Position numbers and translations under genes: made by a program
Shown: in pieces, positions 1 to 17,212 of the stretch
How the letters are laid out: each line of letters begins with the position of its first letter
How positions within the stretch are numbered: the first letter of the stretch is position 1
The notes under the pieces: model-generated
The model's input: only the letters and a program-made list of their open reading frames with translations
Database searches by the model: none
Told to the model about the DNA's origin: nothing
DNA from: Anaerolineales bacterium
Lineage (GTDB): Bacteria > Chloroflexota > Anaerolineae > Anaerolineales > UBA11579
Assembly: GCA_019637805.1 (NCBI GenBank)
Contig: JAHBVB010000001.1
Location: 447,875 to 511,874, forward strand
Reading direction: 5' to 3'
Length of the DNA stretch: 64,000 nt

Positions 1-1127
1 CGAGCATTACCACCCCCGGCTACAGCATCGTTTCCGGCTTGCCAATAGACGACCTGACCACGATTGGAGGCTCGGCGACCATCACCGTGCAATGCGATAG
101 TGTGCCGCAATCGTCGGGCACGCTGGTGCTCAGCACCAACGACCCGGCCAACCCCACCGTGACCTACAACCTGACCTGTACCGCTCCTGCATCGGGCGGC
201 GACTCTGGCTCGTCGTCCGACGGTGTCGGCGCCGTTTCTTCCGCCAGCAAGCCCATAGCCCCTAGTGGGGTCACCACCCTGCAGCTGGGCCGTCTGCTCG
301 TCTCGCTGCCGGCCTCCGCCATTCCGCCCGGCCAGACCGGCTGTGAGATCGCCGTCAAAGAACAGGGCAGTTCCGGCGAATATGGCTTCTCGCTGGACGA
401 TCTGGTCTACGACGTCAAAGTCTTCTGCGACAGCGGCGAACTCAACATCTTCCTGGACGCGCTGACCGTCTGCATCCGCCCCTCAGATGGCGTGCCGGGC
501 GACAAGAACGTCTACCACCGCCATGCGGGCCAGGACTTCCGGGCCATCAATGGTGGCTCCGGGCCTGCAGGCTACGTCTGCGGGCAAACCCGCACGCTCT
601 CGCTGTTCACCCTCGGCCAATTGGCCCTGCCCGCCACCGGCTTCGCGCCGGGCGTGGTCACCGACTTGGGCGCGCCTTCTGTAGCCTACGCCGCGTCTGA
701 CTTGACCCTGAGCATCCCCAAGCTGGGCCTCAACCCGGACATCCTCGGCGTGCCGCAAGGACCCAACGGCTGGGATGTAAGCTGGCTTTCATCGGGGCAA
801 GCCGGTTATCTCTACGGCACGGCCTTCCCCACCTGGGCAGGCAACTCGGTTTTGACCGCCCATGTCTGGAACGCCGACAATACGCCGGGGCCGTTCCATG
901 CTCTCAAGACCCTCCAGCACGGCGACCGCTTCACCATAGCCTATGGTGGCAACACCTATACTTACGAGGTGCGCAGTAATCAGCTAGTGCTGCCCAGTAG
1001 CCAGCGCCCGCTGGCGGAGAGCGAGTACAGCCAAATCACCCTGGTCACCTGCGAGAGTTTCGACCCCGCCACCGGCGACTACCGCTACCGCCGCGCCGTG
1101 CAGGCCGTACTGGTGGACGTGTACTAG
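1..1127 (+). CDS. Surface protein with LPATG motif and C-terminal sortase domain (5' partial)
   Basis: The frame is open to the left edge, so the N-terminus lies outside the window; 374 codons remain. The visible order is the end of an Ig-like repeat of the choice-of-anchor-D kind (GTLVLSTNDPANPTVTYNL, nt 117-173), a Ser/Gly linker, a beta-rich stretch, LPATG (nt 627-641), then a sortase-type domain. The domain shows TAHVWNADNTPGPF with the presumed catalytic His (codon at 861), TLVTC with the Cys (codon at 1050) and an RRAVQAVLV strand with the Arg (codon at 1092). The protein ends VLVDVY with no membrane segment after the domain. Sortases normally cut LPxTG in other proteins; having the motif and the enzyme in one chain suggests self-processing or anchoring in cis, which is inference. 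Confidence 0.75.
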   Translation, partial: SITTPGYSIVSGLPIDDLTTIGGSATITVQCDSVPQSSGTLVLSTNDPANPTVTYNLTCTAPASGGDSGSSSDGVGAVSSASKPIAPSGVTTLQLGRLLVSLPASAIPPGQTGCEIAVKEQGSSGEYGFSLDDLVYDVKVFCDSGELNIFLDALTVCIRPSDGVPGDKNVYHRHAGQDFRAINGGSGPAGYVCGQTRTLSLFTLGQLALPATGFAPGVVTDLGAPSVAYAASDLTLSIPKLGLNPDILGVPQGPNGWDVSWLSSGQAGYLYGTAFPTWAGNSVLTAHVWNADNTPGPFHALKTLQHGDRFTIAYGGNTYTYEVRSNQLVLPSSQRPLAESEYSQITLVTCESFDPATGDYRYRRAVQAVLVDVY

Positions 1128-1208: not shown

Positions 1209-2510
1209 ATGCACGTCATTTCAGCACCGTCTCGCTCCGCTTGTTTCACATTGCTTGCCGTCTTCACGCTGGTGGTCGCCGCCTGCGGTGGCGGCAGCAG
1301 CAACATCAGCGAAGACGATATTCTCGCCACCCACACCGCGCTGCGGACCGAGCAGGCGGCTGGCTGGAATATCACCCCAACGCCACTTCCCACGGCTGTG
1401 CCCACCGCTGGCACCGCAGCCACCGCGCTAGCTCCCTGGCTAGATGTGTTGCAGGCGGTGGATAGCCCCCGCAGCGTCGGCCGCTACAGCTCGTTGGCGC
1501 TGGATGCGGCGGGCAACCCGGTCATTAGCTACTACGATGCCTCCAATATGGATCTCAAGCTGGCCTACTGCCGGGATGCAAACTGCAGCTCCGCCGTGCT
1601 CAGCACCGTGGCCAGCAGCGGCAGGGTGGGCGAATACACCTCGCTGGTGTTGGATGCAACCGGCAAGCCGGTTATCAGCTATTACGACGATGCCGAACGA
1701 GACCTCAAGTTGGCGCATTGCAACGACCCTAACTGCGTGACGGCTGTGCTCAACACCGTGGATAGCGAAGGGGAAGTGGGCCAGCACACTTCGCTGGCGC
1801 TGGACGCAGCTGGCAACCCGGTCATCAGCTACTATGACGGCACAAACTACGCGCTCAAACTGGCCCATTGCACAGACCCAGTATGCAGCTCGGTGATCAT
1901 CACTGTCGTTGATGGTGAGGCCAGGGTGGGTGAATACAGCTCGCTGGCCCTGGATGCAGCGGGCAACCCAGTGATCAGCTACCATGACTCAAGCAATCAG
2001 GATCTGAAGTTGGCGCGTTGCCATGACCCCAACTGCGTCTCGGCTACCCTTAGTATCCTGGACGGCGAGGCGGTTATCACTGGCGCCTTCGGCCGTTACA
2101 GCTCGCTGGTGCTGGACGCGGTGGGCAACCCGGTGGTGAGCTATTACGATGATGTCTTGGACGACCTGAAGCTGGCTCGTTGCCGCCAACCCAATTGTGC
2201 TACCGTGGACATTATTGTGGTGGACAGCGAAGGCGAAGTGGGCTGGTTCACTTCGCTGGCCTTGGACGCGACGGGTAACCCGGTGATCAGCTATTACGAC
2301 CGGACAAATCTCTCACTGAAGCTGGCCCAGTGCCATGACCCCAACTGCGCCAGTGCAGATATCGCCACTGTGGACGATGATGGCGACGTAGGATGGCACA
2401 CTTCGTTGGCGCTGGATTGCGCTGGCAGCCCGGTGATTGCCTACTACGACTTCGCCAATCAATCGCTAAAAGTGGCCAGCTTCAGTGGCTCGCCAGACTG
2501 CCAGCCCTAA
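1209..2510 (+). CDS. Secreted lipoprotein with seven ~50-residue repeats
   Basis: 433 aa. A hydrophobic signal with lipobox VVAAC (Cys26) marks a membrane-anchored lipoprotein. A short Thr/Pro linker ([11 protein letters not shown]) leads into seven tandem repeats from about residue 89 to the end. Each repeat holds a core like [18 protein letters not shown] followed by LKLAHCxDPNC, so there is a conserved pair of Cys residues near each repeat end; the last repeat departs from this. The pattern suggests a beta-propeller whose blades are each closed by a disulphide. The role is unknown; outer-surface binding or scaffolding is a guess. It has its own promoter and faces a convergent methylase gene. 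Confidence 0.75.
1473..2483 (+). repeat. Seven tandem ~150-nt coding repeats
   Basis: Each unit encodes about 50 aa around [15 protein letters not shown] and LKLA-C-DPNC. The fourth unit is longer by a few residues (insert VITGA). Units are similar but not identical at DNA level, so the array is old rather than freshly amplified. Confidence 0.8.
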
Positions 2511-13635: not shown

Positions 13636-14469
13636 ATGAAATCGCTCAGCTTGACCATTTTCCTCGGAACCCTGTTAGCCCTCACCATCGGCGGCGTGTT
13701 TTTTGTTTCCCCCGCAGCTGCCGAAACCACCGAGATGCCCTTCATCTCGGCCGATCCCCAAGCCATTCTGCGTGACCCGGTAACTCCCCTGACGGGCGAT
13801 GCCCCGATGGCCGCCGCGGCGCCGGCCGACTTGAATGCCGACCTCGCTGCGGCGGCCCTGGCCGGCAGCTTTACCATGGAGCTGAGCAAGGCCGCTCCGG
13901 CAGCCCCCAGCCAGGAGCTGGCGGCCAGCCGCCCGAACAGCGACGTGCAAGCCCCGGCCGCCCCGGCCCTGAGCCTGGAGCATTTTGCGGCCAGCCTGTC
14001 GGCCGGCAACGCCAACCAGGTCACCGGACTGTTTGTGAAAGATGTGCTGGCCTTCCCCGTGGGCAGCCAGCCCGCCGGTAACGCCGCCTATGTGACCAGC
14101 AAGCCCAACGAAGTCACCAAATTCGGTATGGCCGCCAGCTACGGCAGCCAGGCCTTCCTAGCCCACAATTATTTGGCCGGCGCCGCTTTCTTTGAGCTGA
14201 GCGTGGGGCAGACGATCACCCTGGTGCAGGGTGACGGCAGCACTCGCGAGTATCGCGTCGAGAGCATCCGCCGCTTCCAGGCGCTCTCCCCAGACTCGAC
14301 CCAGTCGCGCTTCGTGGACCTGGACAACGGCAAAGAACTCTCGGCGGCCAACCTGTTCGCCCAGATCTACAACAGCAACAATCCGGTGGTGCTGCAAACC
14401 TGCATCGAGAACAACGGCATCAGCACCTGGGGGCGCATGTTCATCATCGCCGTGCCGGTGAACGGCTAA
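13636..14469 (+). CDS. Secreted protein with sortase-like C-terminal domain
   Basis: 277 aa with a GGAAAGG site 9 nt before the ATG. A signal peptide (about 1-29, ending SPAAA) is followed by a long Ala/Pro-rich low-complexity region (about 35-115). The final third has the sortase landmarks: FLAHNYL (His177), a strand pair around VGQTITLVQGDGSTREYRV, VVLQTC (Cys256) and WGRMFIIAVPV (Arg267). Unlike usual class E/F enzymes it lacks a clear membrane anchor, so it would be released or bound through the Ala/Pro region. It is one of three sortase-fold proteins in the window. Confidence 0.7.
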   Translation: MKSLSLTIFLGTLLALTIGGVFFVSPAAAETTEMPFISADPQAILRDPVTPLTGDAPMAAAAPADLNADLAAAALAGSFTMELSKAAPAAPSQELAASRPNSDVQAPAAPALSLEHFAASLSAGNANQVTGLFVKDVLAFPVGSQPAGNAAYVTSKPNEVTKFGMAASYGSQAFLAHNYLAGAAFFELSVGQTITLVQGDGSTREYRVESIRRFQALSPDSTQSRFVDLDNGKELSAANLFAQIYNSNNPVVLQTCIENNGISTWGRMFIIAVPVNG

Positions 14470-14603: not shown

Positions 14604-15365
14604 CTAACCGGAACTTCCGCGGATAGGCACCGCCACCACAACCACCCGGTGCGTGTTGCTTTCGTACGGCCAACAAGTGATGATAGTGACGCGCTCATCT
14701 TCGGTGCTCTGGATCCACTCGGAGTTGGCCAGACGCACGTCCAGCGGCTGGTTGCGCTCCGGCAGGACCCCGGTGTAGACGACCACATAGCGAAACTCCT
14801 GCCCCTCCGCCATAATGCGGATCTCTTCACCCACTTGAACTCGATACAGGTCGCGGAAGACCTCTCCATAGATGTTGTGATGTCCGTTGAGCACGGTATT
14901 GCCCGGCACGGTCAAGCCGGCCGAGGTTTCATGCCAACCCACCGCCCGGTAATCCGGCGCCAGCCACTGGTCGTAGACTACACCTTCAAACTGCAGCTTT
15001 TCATAGCTGATCGGGGTGATGGTGGCATCCAGATCAATCACAGGGATCAGGATGCGCTCGGGCACCAGGCCCGGGTCACGGAACACATCGCCAGCCTCAA
15101 CCAGCGGCGTAGGGAATGCCTGCTGCTCGCCAGCCTGCACCGCCACCAGCCCCGGGTCCGCATTGGCGCCTTCCAGGGAATAGACCGGCAGGAAGCCGGC
15201 CTCTATTTGGTCATCCACCGCCAGGTCAATCGTGCGCGGCGGCAGGATAAACAGATCCACCAGGCTTTTGCCGAAGGCGAAAAAGATGACCAGAAAGCCC
15301 AGAAAGATAAGGGCGATGACGGGCAAATTGGCGTCTCGTTTGGGCTGCTGTGTGCTGGTTTGCAT
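14604..15365 (-). CDS. Sortase (membrane-anchored, class D/E-like)
   Basis: 253 aa. An N-terminal membrane segment (about 14-33) is followed by an extracellular region and the catalytic domain: TVLNGHHNIYGEVF (His162), VTIITCWPYE (Cys231) and NTHRVVVVAVP (Arg240). ILIPVIDLDATITPI is the usual first strand. Such enzymes join surface proteins to a wall component or process them at an LPxTG-like site. The next gene upstream on this strand encodes a protein with an LIPVTG sorting-like C-terminus, its most likely substrate. Confidence 0.88.
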   Translation of the reverse strand: MQTSTQQPKRDANLPVIALIFLGFLVIFFAFGKSLVDLFILPPRTIDLAVDDQIEAGFLPVYSLEGANADPGLVAVQAGEQQAFPTPLVEAGDVFRDPGLVPERILIPVIDLDATITPISYEKLQFEGVVYDQWLAPDYRAVGWHETSAGLTVPGNTVLNGHHNIYGEVFRDLYRVQVGEEIRIMAEGQEFRYVVVYTGVLPERNQPLDVRLANSEWIQSTEDERVTIITCWPYESNTHRVVVVAVPIRGSSG

Positions 15366-15451: not shown

Positions 15452-17212
15452 TTACTCCTCGTCCTCATAGTAGTACTCGTACTCATCATCCTCGTCGTCC
15501 TGAGGCTGGCTGCCATCCCGGTCCATCTTCAAGCCGATGCCCAGCAGGATCAGAGCGAAACCAAACACGCCCAGGCCCAGGTTGAGGAACATGCTGTCCC
15601 GGAAGATGGCCGGCAGTTCAATGCCGGTGACCGGGATGAGCACGCCGGGCGTGGCCGTGGCGGTGGGGGTGGCCGTGGGAGGCTCGCCATCGCAGAGCGT
15701 GCCACTGTTCGAAGTGGTCAGCGTGCGGGCGGTGCCGTCATTCGGGTCCTGCCACATGATGGCGACCGTGTTGGGCAGGCTGCCCTCCACCGCCGAGCCA
15801 AAGGTCATGCTGCCATTGGCCGGGATGTTCTCCGGACCGCCAGAGTTGGTGCCGCCCACCACCCACCAGGTGAAGGTCAGGTTGGTGGGGTGCGAATTGC
15901 TGACTTCCCAGCGCAGGGTGCCCTCTTGCTGGACGCACAGGCCGACCAGGGTAAGCCCGTCACCCGTGACAGGCACGAACGGCGTCACAGTAAAGGTGGA
16001 CGTCAGGCTGGGGGTGTCCGTGGGGGTGACCGGCGTGTTGGTTGGCGTATCCGGCAACGTACCCGTGGGCGTGTTGGTCGGGGTATCGGTGGGCGTGTTG
16101 GTCGGCGTATCCGTCGGCGTGTCAGAAGCCGTGGGGGTATCCGACGGGGTCGGAGTCAGCGTGTCCGTCGGCGTATTGCTGGGCGTGAAGGTGAGTGACG
16201 CGGTCGGCGTGTTGGTCAAAGTGCCGGTGGGCGTCTCGCTGGGCGTCAGCGTGATGCTGGGCGTCAGCGTCGGTGTGTCTGTCGGGGTGTTCGACGGCGT
16301 CAGGGTCGGTGTATCCGTGGGCGTATTGCTGGGCGTGAAGGTCGCCGTTTCCGTCGGGGTATTGGACGGGGTCAGGGTTGGCGTATCGCTCGGGGTGAGC
16401 GTGGCCGTAAAGGTCGGGGTATTGCTGGGCGTGTAGGTCACCGTGAACGTCGGCGTATTGCTGGGCGTAAACGTCGGCGTAATGGTTGGCGTGTTGCTGG
16501 GGGTAAAGGTCGGCGTGATGCTAGGCGTCAGCGTAAAGGTCGGGGTATTGCTCGGCGTAAAGGTCGGCGTGATGCTGGGCGTCAGCGTAAAGGTCGGCGT
16601 GAATGTGGGTGTAAAGGTCGGGGTGATGCTGGGCGTCAACGTAAACGTTGACGTGAAGGTCGGCGTAAATGTGGGCGTAATGCTGGGGGTTAAAGTAAAG
16701 GTCGCCGTGGGCGTATTGCTCGGCGTGGGGGTTTTGGTCGGTGTCCTGGTCGGCGTGTTGGTGGCCGTATTGCTGGGCGTCAGGGTCTTGGTAGGCGTGT
16801 TGGTGGGTGTATTGGTTGGCGTCTTGGAAGGCGTTACAGTCGGGGTTGGAGTCTTGATCTTGTATTCGCCCTTGTCCTCACAGTCAACAGTGCCATCCAC
16901 CCACCACTCCCAGCTCACAGTCGGCGGGGTGATGGTGCCAATAGTCTGCCAACCCGTGTTGCGCGGCATAAAGGGCACATTAAAGCGGGCGACCCGCGTC
17001 CCCCAACTGCCCCCTGTACGAATATACACATCAGCTTGCTGGGCGGCCTCGTCCACTCCGGAGCGGTTTTCCACCTGCACCGTGCCGTTTTCCTGCACGC
17101 GGAAATTGTAGGCAGTGCAGTCCCAGGCCTGGGCCACAGTAATGGTGGCCGCCGCCAGAACGGCCATGATCAGGCCTGCAAAAACGAAGCGTCTCAATAT
17201 ATTCGCCAGCAT
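15452..17212 (-). CDS. Thr/Pro-repeat surface protein with LIPVTG C-terminal sorting signal
   Basis: 586 aa. Signal peptide 1-29 (TVAQA), then a beta-domain with paired Cys and several Trp (about 30-118), a long stalk of TPTxTPS-type repeats (about 121-410), a second beta-domain (about 415-505) and the C-terminus. The end reads LIPVTG (525-530), a hydrophobic helix (about 542-561), KMDRDG, then an extreme acidic/Tyr tail. Motif plus hydrophobic span plus charged residues is the layout of a sortase sorting signal, although the tail is acidic rather than basic. The ATG overlaps the stop of the response-regulator gene (TAATG), so the two are translated together. Confidence 0.8.
15985..16852 (-). 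repeat. Thr/Pro stalk repeat
   Basis: Degenerate 12-30-nt units encoding [16 protein letters not shown]-like sequence over about 290 residues. Long antisense frames across it are by-products of its biased composition. Such tracts slip easily, so length may vary between strains or be misassembled. Confidence 0.85.

Follow-up and report, generated by a model that had tools for sequence, protein, structure and literature searches.

The first gene of the window, by which we mean the whole stretch of 64,000 nucleotides that was analysed, raises the question of whether a surface protein can carry the very enzyme that anchors it. Sortases are known as separate enzymes, each processing many substrates, and here an LPATG motif and a sortase domain are encoded in one polypeptide. 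The initial annotation had proposed that such a protein could cleave and attach itself and, as far as sequence comparison can tell, this reading fits the data best.

Architecture of the window protein

The open frame at 3..1127 (forward strand, as are all the features of this gene) enters from outside the window and encodes the C-terminal 374 aa of an exported protein 912 aa long, whose full gene (L008 2264-5002) starts ∼1.6 kb upstream of the window and specifies a Sec-type signal peptide with no lipobox. Immediately before the motif stands a beta-rich domain (237..626; modelled, with pLDDT mostly 75–95), which is common to other family members (a cluster of 19 among the sampled modules). LPATG occupies nucleotides 627..641, exactly where it had been reported; self-cleavage is proposed to fall between its Thr and its Gly. 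The motif is extended by FAPG at 642..653 (sequence-weighted conservation F 97%, A 72%, P 81% and G 65%). A variable linker (654..707), mostly of low confidence in the model, leads to the C-terminal sortase domain PF04203 (708..1124, residues 236–371 of the 374-aa fragment), recognised by profile match and fold comparison. The catalytic codons, read from the sequence and the alignment, lie at 861..863 (His), 1050..1052 (Cys) and 1089..1091 (Arg), which confirms the sortase order claimed for them; His and Cys are invariant, and Arg is 97% by weight, the remainder being gaps. The domain had been placed 220 nt after the motif, a figure which holds as the distance to the catalytic His, whereas the domain itself begins at about nt 708, 66 nt past the motif. 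Neither a hydrophobic span nor a charged tail follows LPATG, so that a standard sorting signal at this point is ruled out, as the initial annotation had also held.

The assignment of the C-terminal domain to the sortases is solid, judged by profile, triad and predicted fold, and transpeptidase activity is predicted. A profile search of the C-terminus against PF04203 (C60) returned 63.3 bits, for a cut-off of 26.6. Two AlphaFold models made from 13 sequences have mean pLDDT values of 72 and 64 and, whilst this confidence is modest, the predicted structure matches solved sortases, the best VIA match being SrtA of L. rhamnosus (Z 14.6, rmsd 2.2, 127 residues); the longer model gave a Foldseek E of 3e-8. 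Structure prediction thus yields a sortase by fold comparison, but one in which the motif has a pLDDT of about 30, and in which confidence is low for a large part of the sortase's N-terminal half as well. None of the NCBIfam sortase classes reaches its curated cut-off with the window module: class C comes nearest, its 44 bits falling short of a cut-off of 160, with D at 34 (165), E at 34 (160), F at 31 (166) and GN at 30 (158).

The module is like the class C sortases, such as GBS SrtC1 and SrtC2 (PMC3493515), in its fold, its triad, its spacing and the presence of a segment 71–77 residues before the His. In GBS SrtC this segment is a DPF or DPY lid, whose Pro superimposes on that of SrtA-bound LPAT; there are 71–72 residues from the lid Pro to the His and 62 from His to Cys (PMC3493515). 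The corresponding distances in the module are 77 residues from the Pro of LPxTG to the His and 63 from His to Cys. Fold alignment with the SrtC structures 4g1j and 4g1h starts at model residue 14/15, the T or G of LPATG, and the aligned SrtC start (residue 89 in 4g1j, 84 in 4g1h) is at or beside the respective lids, D90–Y92 and D84–F86. Given the low pLDDT of the motif, the alignment shows that the motif is compatible with the lid position of class C sortases, and not that it contacts the Cys. Unlike in class C, the segment is LPxTG and not DPF/Y/W: the DPx-aromatic lid is missing from the module, and LPxTGF occupies the corresponding position in the chain. The C-terminal membrane span of class C is also missing, the proteins mostly stopping 0–3 aa past the domain, and the module terminates a large exported protein.

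Distribution and conservation of the module

Profile searching found seven PF04203 proteins in this genome. In four of them LPATGFAPG lies directly upstream of the sortase domain; these range from 577 to 2744 codons, and the C-terminal part of each consists of LPATGFAPG, then a variable linker, then the sortase domain. The remaining three (L012, L013 and L014) are stand-alone sortases without the motif. One paralogue (L009 2880-6390, at G000:C1:425847) is apparently broken, its signal peptide and first part lying in one frame, with a change of frame and a stop codon separating these from the rest. By DNA pattern, from which all the genome-wide LPxTG counts derive, LPxTGF has six sites in the genome, four of them within the motif-bearing sortase genes; the other two are in frames of 23 and 152 codons with no exported-protein features.

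The window itself contains further sortase-like genes. A stand-alone membrane sortase (14604-15365, reverse strand) adjoins a gene for a Thr/Pro-repeat protein (15452-17212, reverse strand) whose final part comprises IPVTG, a membrane span and a tail. The two are a probable ordinary sortase–substrate pair, and ordinary in-trans sorting therefore probably also takes place in this cell. The third sortase-like gene (13636-14469, forward strand) encodes an exported protein which scores 227 bits with NCBIfam sortase_YLP (putative sortase) but matches Pfam Sortase weakly. In the stand-alone sortases (L001, L048-L051, L141 and L142), the membrane span is followed by a conserved LPSGHTPP-like segment and this in turn by the domain.

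Among relatives, the module profile matches 23 of the 24 family genomes and, at E<=1e-12, 206 of the 251 genomes of the order, sortase-only matches being included in both counts. In a phylum sample of 400 genomes, strong motif-including matches occurred only in the order, among the matches listed, and matches outside it mostly cover the sortase part alone. The named records are Anaerolineales, Anaerolineae and Chloroflexi MAGs. The form xPxTG[F/Y/M] precedes the sortase in 131 of 132 distinct strong modules from relatives, nearly always 23–29 residues before the domain, and 15 residue types are found at the x of xPxTG in this set. Tandem duplication of an LPSTGF motif with its linker before the sortase is seen in L070, and about seven consecutive sortase genes lie within 16 kb in one genome (G031, contig C134, 11072-27247).

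Homologues which keep the sortase triad do not vary freely at LPATG. Across 130 aligned modules P, T and G are 100% kept, and the weighted entropy is 0 at P, T, G, H and C and 0.19 at F, compared with 3.27 bits at x, 3.21 bits over the 20 upstream residues, 2.46 in the linker and 1.63 on average in the sortase. H, C and R are kept in all 130 modules covering these columns. This pattern, in which P, T and G are invariant and x is free, is what marks a sortase substrate. Each of P, T and G is found with all four of its synonymous codons, which points to purifying selection and not to recent copying. A chance motif is ruled out by this conservation and codon spread, as is recent duplication alone, since modules are found across most of the order.

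When 183 sortase domains were placed in a tree, a single split (support 0.81) holds all 136 motif-bearing sortases together with two others, and no motif-bearing sortase falls outside it. One of the two exceptions (L112) is a broken frame. The other (L111), from a different family of the class, lacks LPxTG upstream and counts against self-sorting. A separate clade of C-terminally fused sortases (L120, L121, L124-L127, L211-L221), from family f14 of the order, is without LPxTG; about 35 residues before the domain it conserves a segment of the form LPx[YF]x[IV]P[TS]P, for example LPxYPIPTP.

The module is portable, being joined to varied ectodomains. The 150 residues preceding the motif fall into 17 clusters, seven of which contain more than one member, and at least seven unrelated kinds of ectodomain carry the module; Chlam_PMP, DUF11, DUF7507, Big_9 and GramPos_pilinBB are among the Pfam domains recognised in different members. 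Most of the proteins with a known start begin with a Sec-type signal peptide that lacks a lipobox, as called by a simple hydrophobicity rule and by eye rather than by a trained predictor, and at the other end the chain mostly finishes within the 0–3 residues past the sortase mentioned above. Once the signal peptide has been removed, the module is the sole remaining anchor predicted for these proteins. The gene following that of the window protein (1209..2510, forward strand) encodes an ISYYD-type repeat protein with a lipobox-like N-terminus (LVVAAC, by eye), the repeats of which resemble those in the L011 and L025 proteins; the LPxTG–sortase module is absent from it. Related repeats with a lipobox-like start and no module suggest that the module replaces another anchor, and module and lipobox may be interchangeable as anchors.

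Proposed self-sorting and its alternatives

With LPxTG and a sortase in one chain, each of these proteins probably performs its own cleavage and anchoring. We give somewhat better than even odds to the proposal that the last ∼170 residues form a portable self-sorting module, which would cut its own LPxT|G and transfer the ectodomain to the envelope. As we infer the steps, cleavage, cis action, nucleophile and sortase release included, the protein would be exported by Sec and lose its signal peptide, and the C-terminal sortase domain would fold outside the membrane. LPxTG, 77 residues ahead of the His and borne on a flexible linker, would enter the groove of its own chain or of a second copy, taking the place held there by the pseudo-substrate lid in class C. 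Sequence accommodates action in cis and from copy to copy equally. The Cys would then cut the Thr–Gly bond and form a thioester with the ectodomain, to be accepted by an envelope amine, for which a peptidoglycan stem peptide, lipid II or a protein Lys are candidates. The sortase would remain as a by-product bearing an N-terminal Gly-Phe, so that every molecule would work a single time, upon itself. As the C-terminal part that is cut away, the enzyme would stand in for the hydrophobic span and charged tail of an ordinary sorting signal, and the lid position would have become, or may always have been, a true substrate.

The main rival to self-sorting is a purely autoinhibitory lid: LPxTG would be an uncut pseudo-substrate, and the fused sortase would act on other proteins once the lid moves. 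The chain position of the motif is near that of the DPF/DPY lid, with which the fold alignment agrees; a segment that only blocks would yield similar conservation; and the Pro-rich LPxYPIPTP of the related clade lies somewhat further upstream of its fused sortases. Class C lids, however, are DPx-aromatic and non-cleavable, whereas the invariant T-G and free x seen here are those of true substrates. That x is free favours recognition as a substrate, and that T-G is invariant favours cleavage over a mere plug.

PF00746 (Gram_pos_anchor) had no match in any of the 24 family genomes, that of the window included, in searches whose controls worked, and it is present in 3 of 121 genomes of the order. 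The LPxTGFxP pattern gave 50 matches in the 24 family genomes, 39 of them at modules and 11 elsewhere, the latter to be compared with seven for a reversed-pattern control; seven of the 11 were inspected, and none is placed C-terminally in a long ORF for an exported protein. Separate LPxTGF(xP) substrates in trans were thus not found in the 24 family genomes. In addition, an enzyme of its own on each ectodomain would be superfluous for a sortase acting in trans. It is unlikely, in our view, that the motif is a lid and nothing else.

A second possibility is that LPxTG is a genuine sorting signal cut by a stand-alone membrane sortase of the cell, and that the fused domain serves for binding or retention or has a later role. 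The genome does have candidates in L012, L013 and L014, one of which adjoins the IPVTG protein with span and tail, but IPVTG with a membrane span is a different kind of signal from that of the module, the motif occurs only with the fused sortase clade, and the fused domain has H, C and R fully conserved. We regard this division of labour as improbable. Head-to-tail polymerisation, in which the Thr of one copy would be linked to a Lys of another in a covalent fibre as in pilins, is very improbable: class C is the nearest NCBIfam class (44 bits, below cut-off) and one ectodomain from this genome, with DUF11 repeats, matches GramPos_pilinBB, but the ectodomains differ widely and have no pilin part in common.

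Relation to known systems

Like the PF00746 signals used by class A and E sortases, the module has LPxTG with a free x at the C-terminal side of an exported ectodomain; unlike them, it has a sortase domain after the motif, so that substrate and enzyme share one chain. Fusions of LPXTG and SrtA have been engineered for protein purification and are self-cleaving in cis, but these are man-made and use added glycine as the nucleophile, whereas the module is natural and order-wide. Inteins and Hedgehog-type domains are single-turnover C-terminal domains which pass the N-terminal part on by way of a thioester. The module would work alike, although its fold and residues are unrelated to theirs and the reaction would be that of a sortase.

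The sortase fold and triad are known, and we found no description of LPxTG and a sortase together in one natural protein in the open-access full-text literature, subscription journals being outside the scope of the search. Some surveys seek LPxTG within the last 50 residues (PMC8286594, PMC12617251); the motif here is about 166 residues from the end, so such surveys would miss these proteins.

The surface display without a separate enzyme envisaged in the initial annotation is plausible, in a genome that also encodes three stand-alone sortases. Whether we are dealing with natural self-sorting, in which a single-use sortase of the protein's own would serve as anchor in an order where ordinary LPXTG signals are nearly absent, we put at an even chance. 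If true, these proteins would provide ready-made self-cleaving ligation modules for protein engineering, and would show a route to the surface for proteins of these poorly known Chloroflexota.
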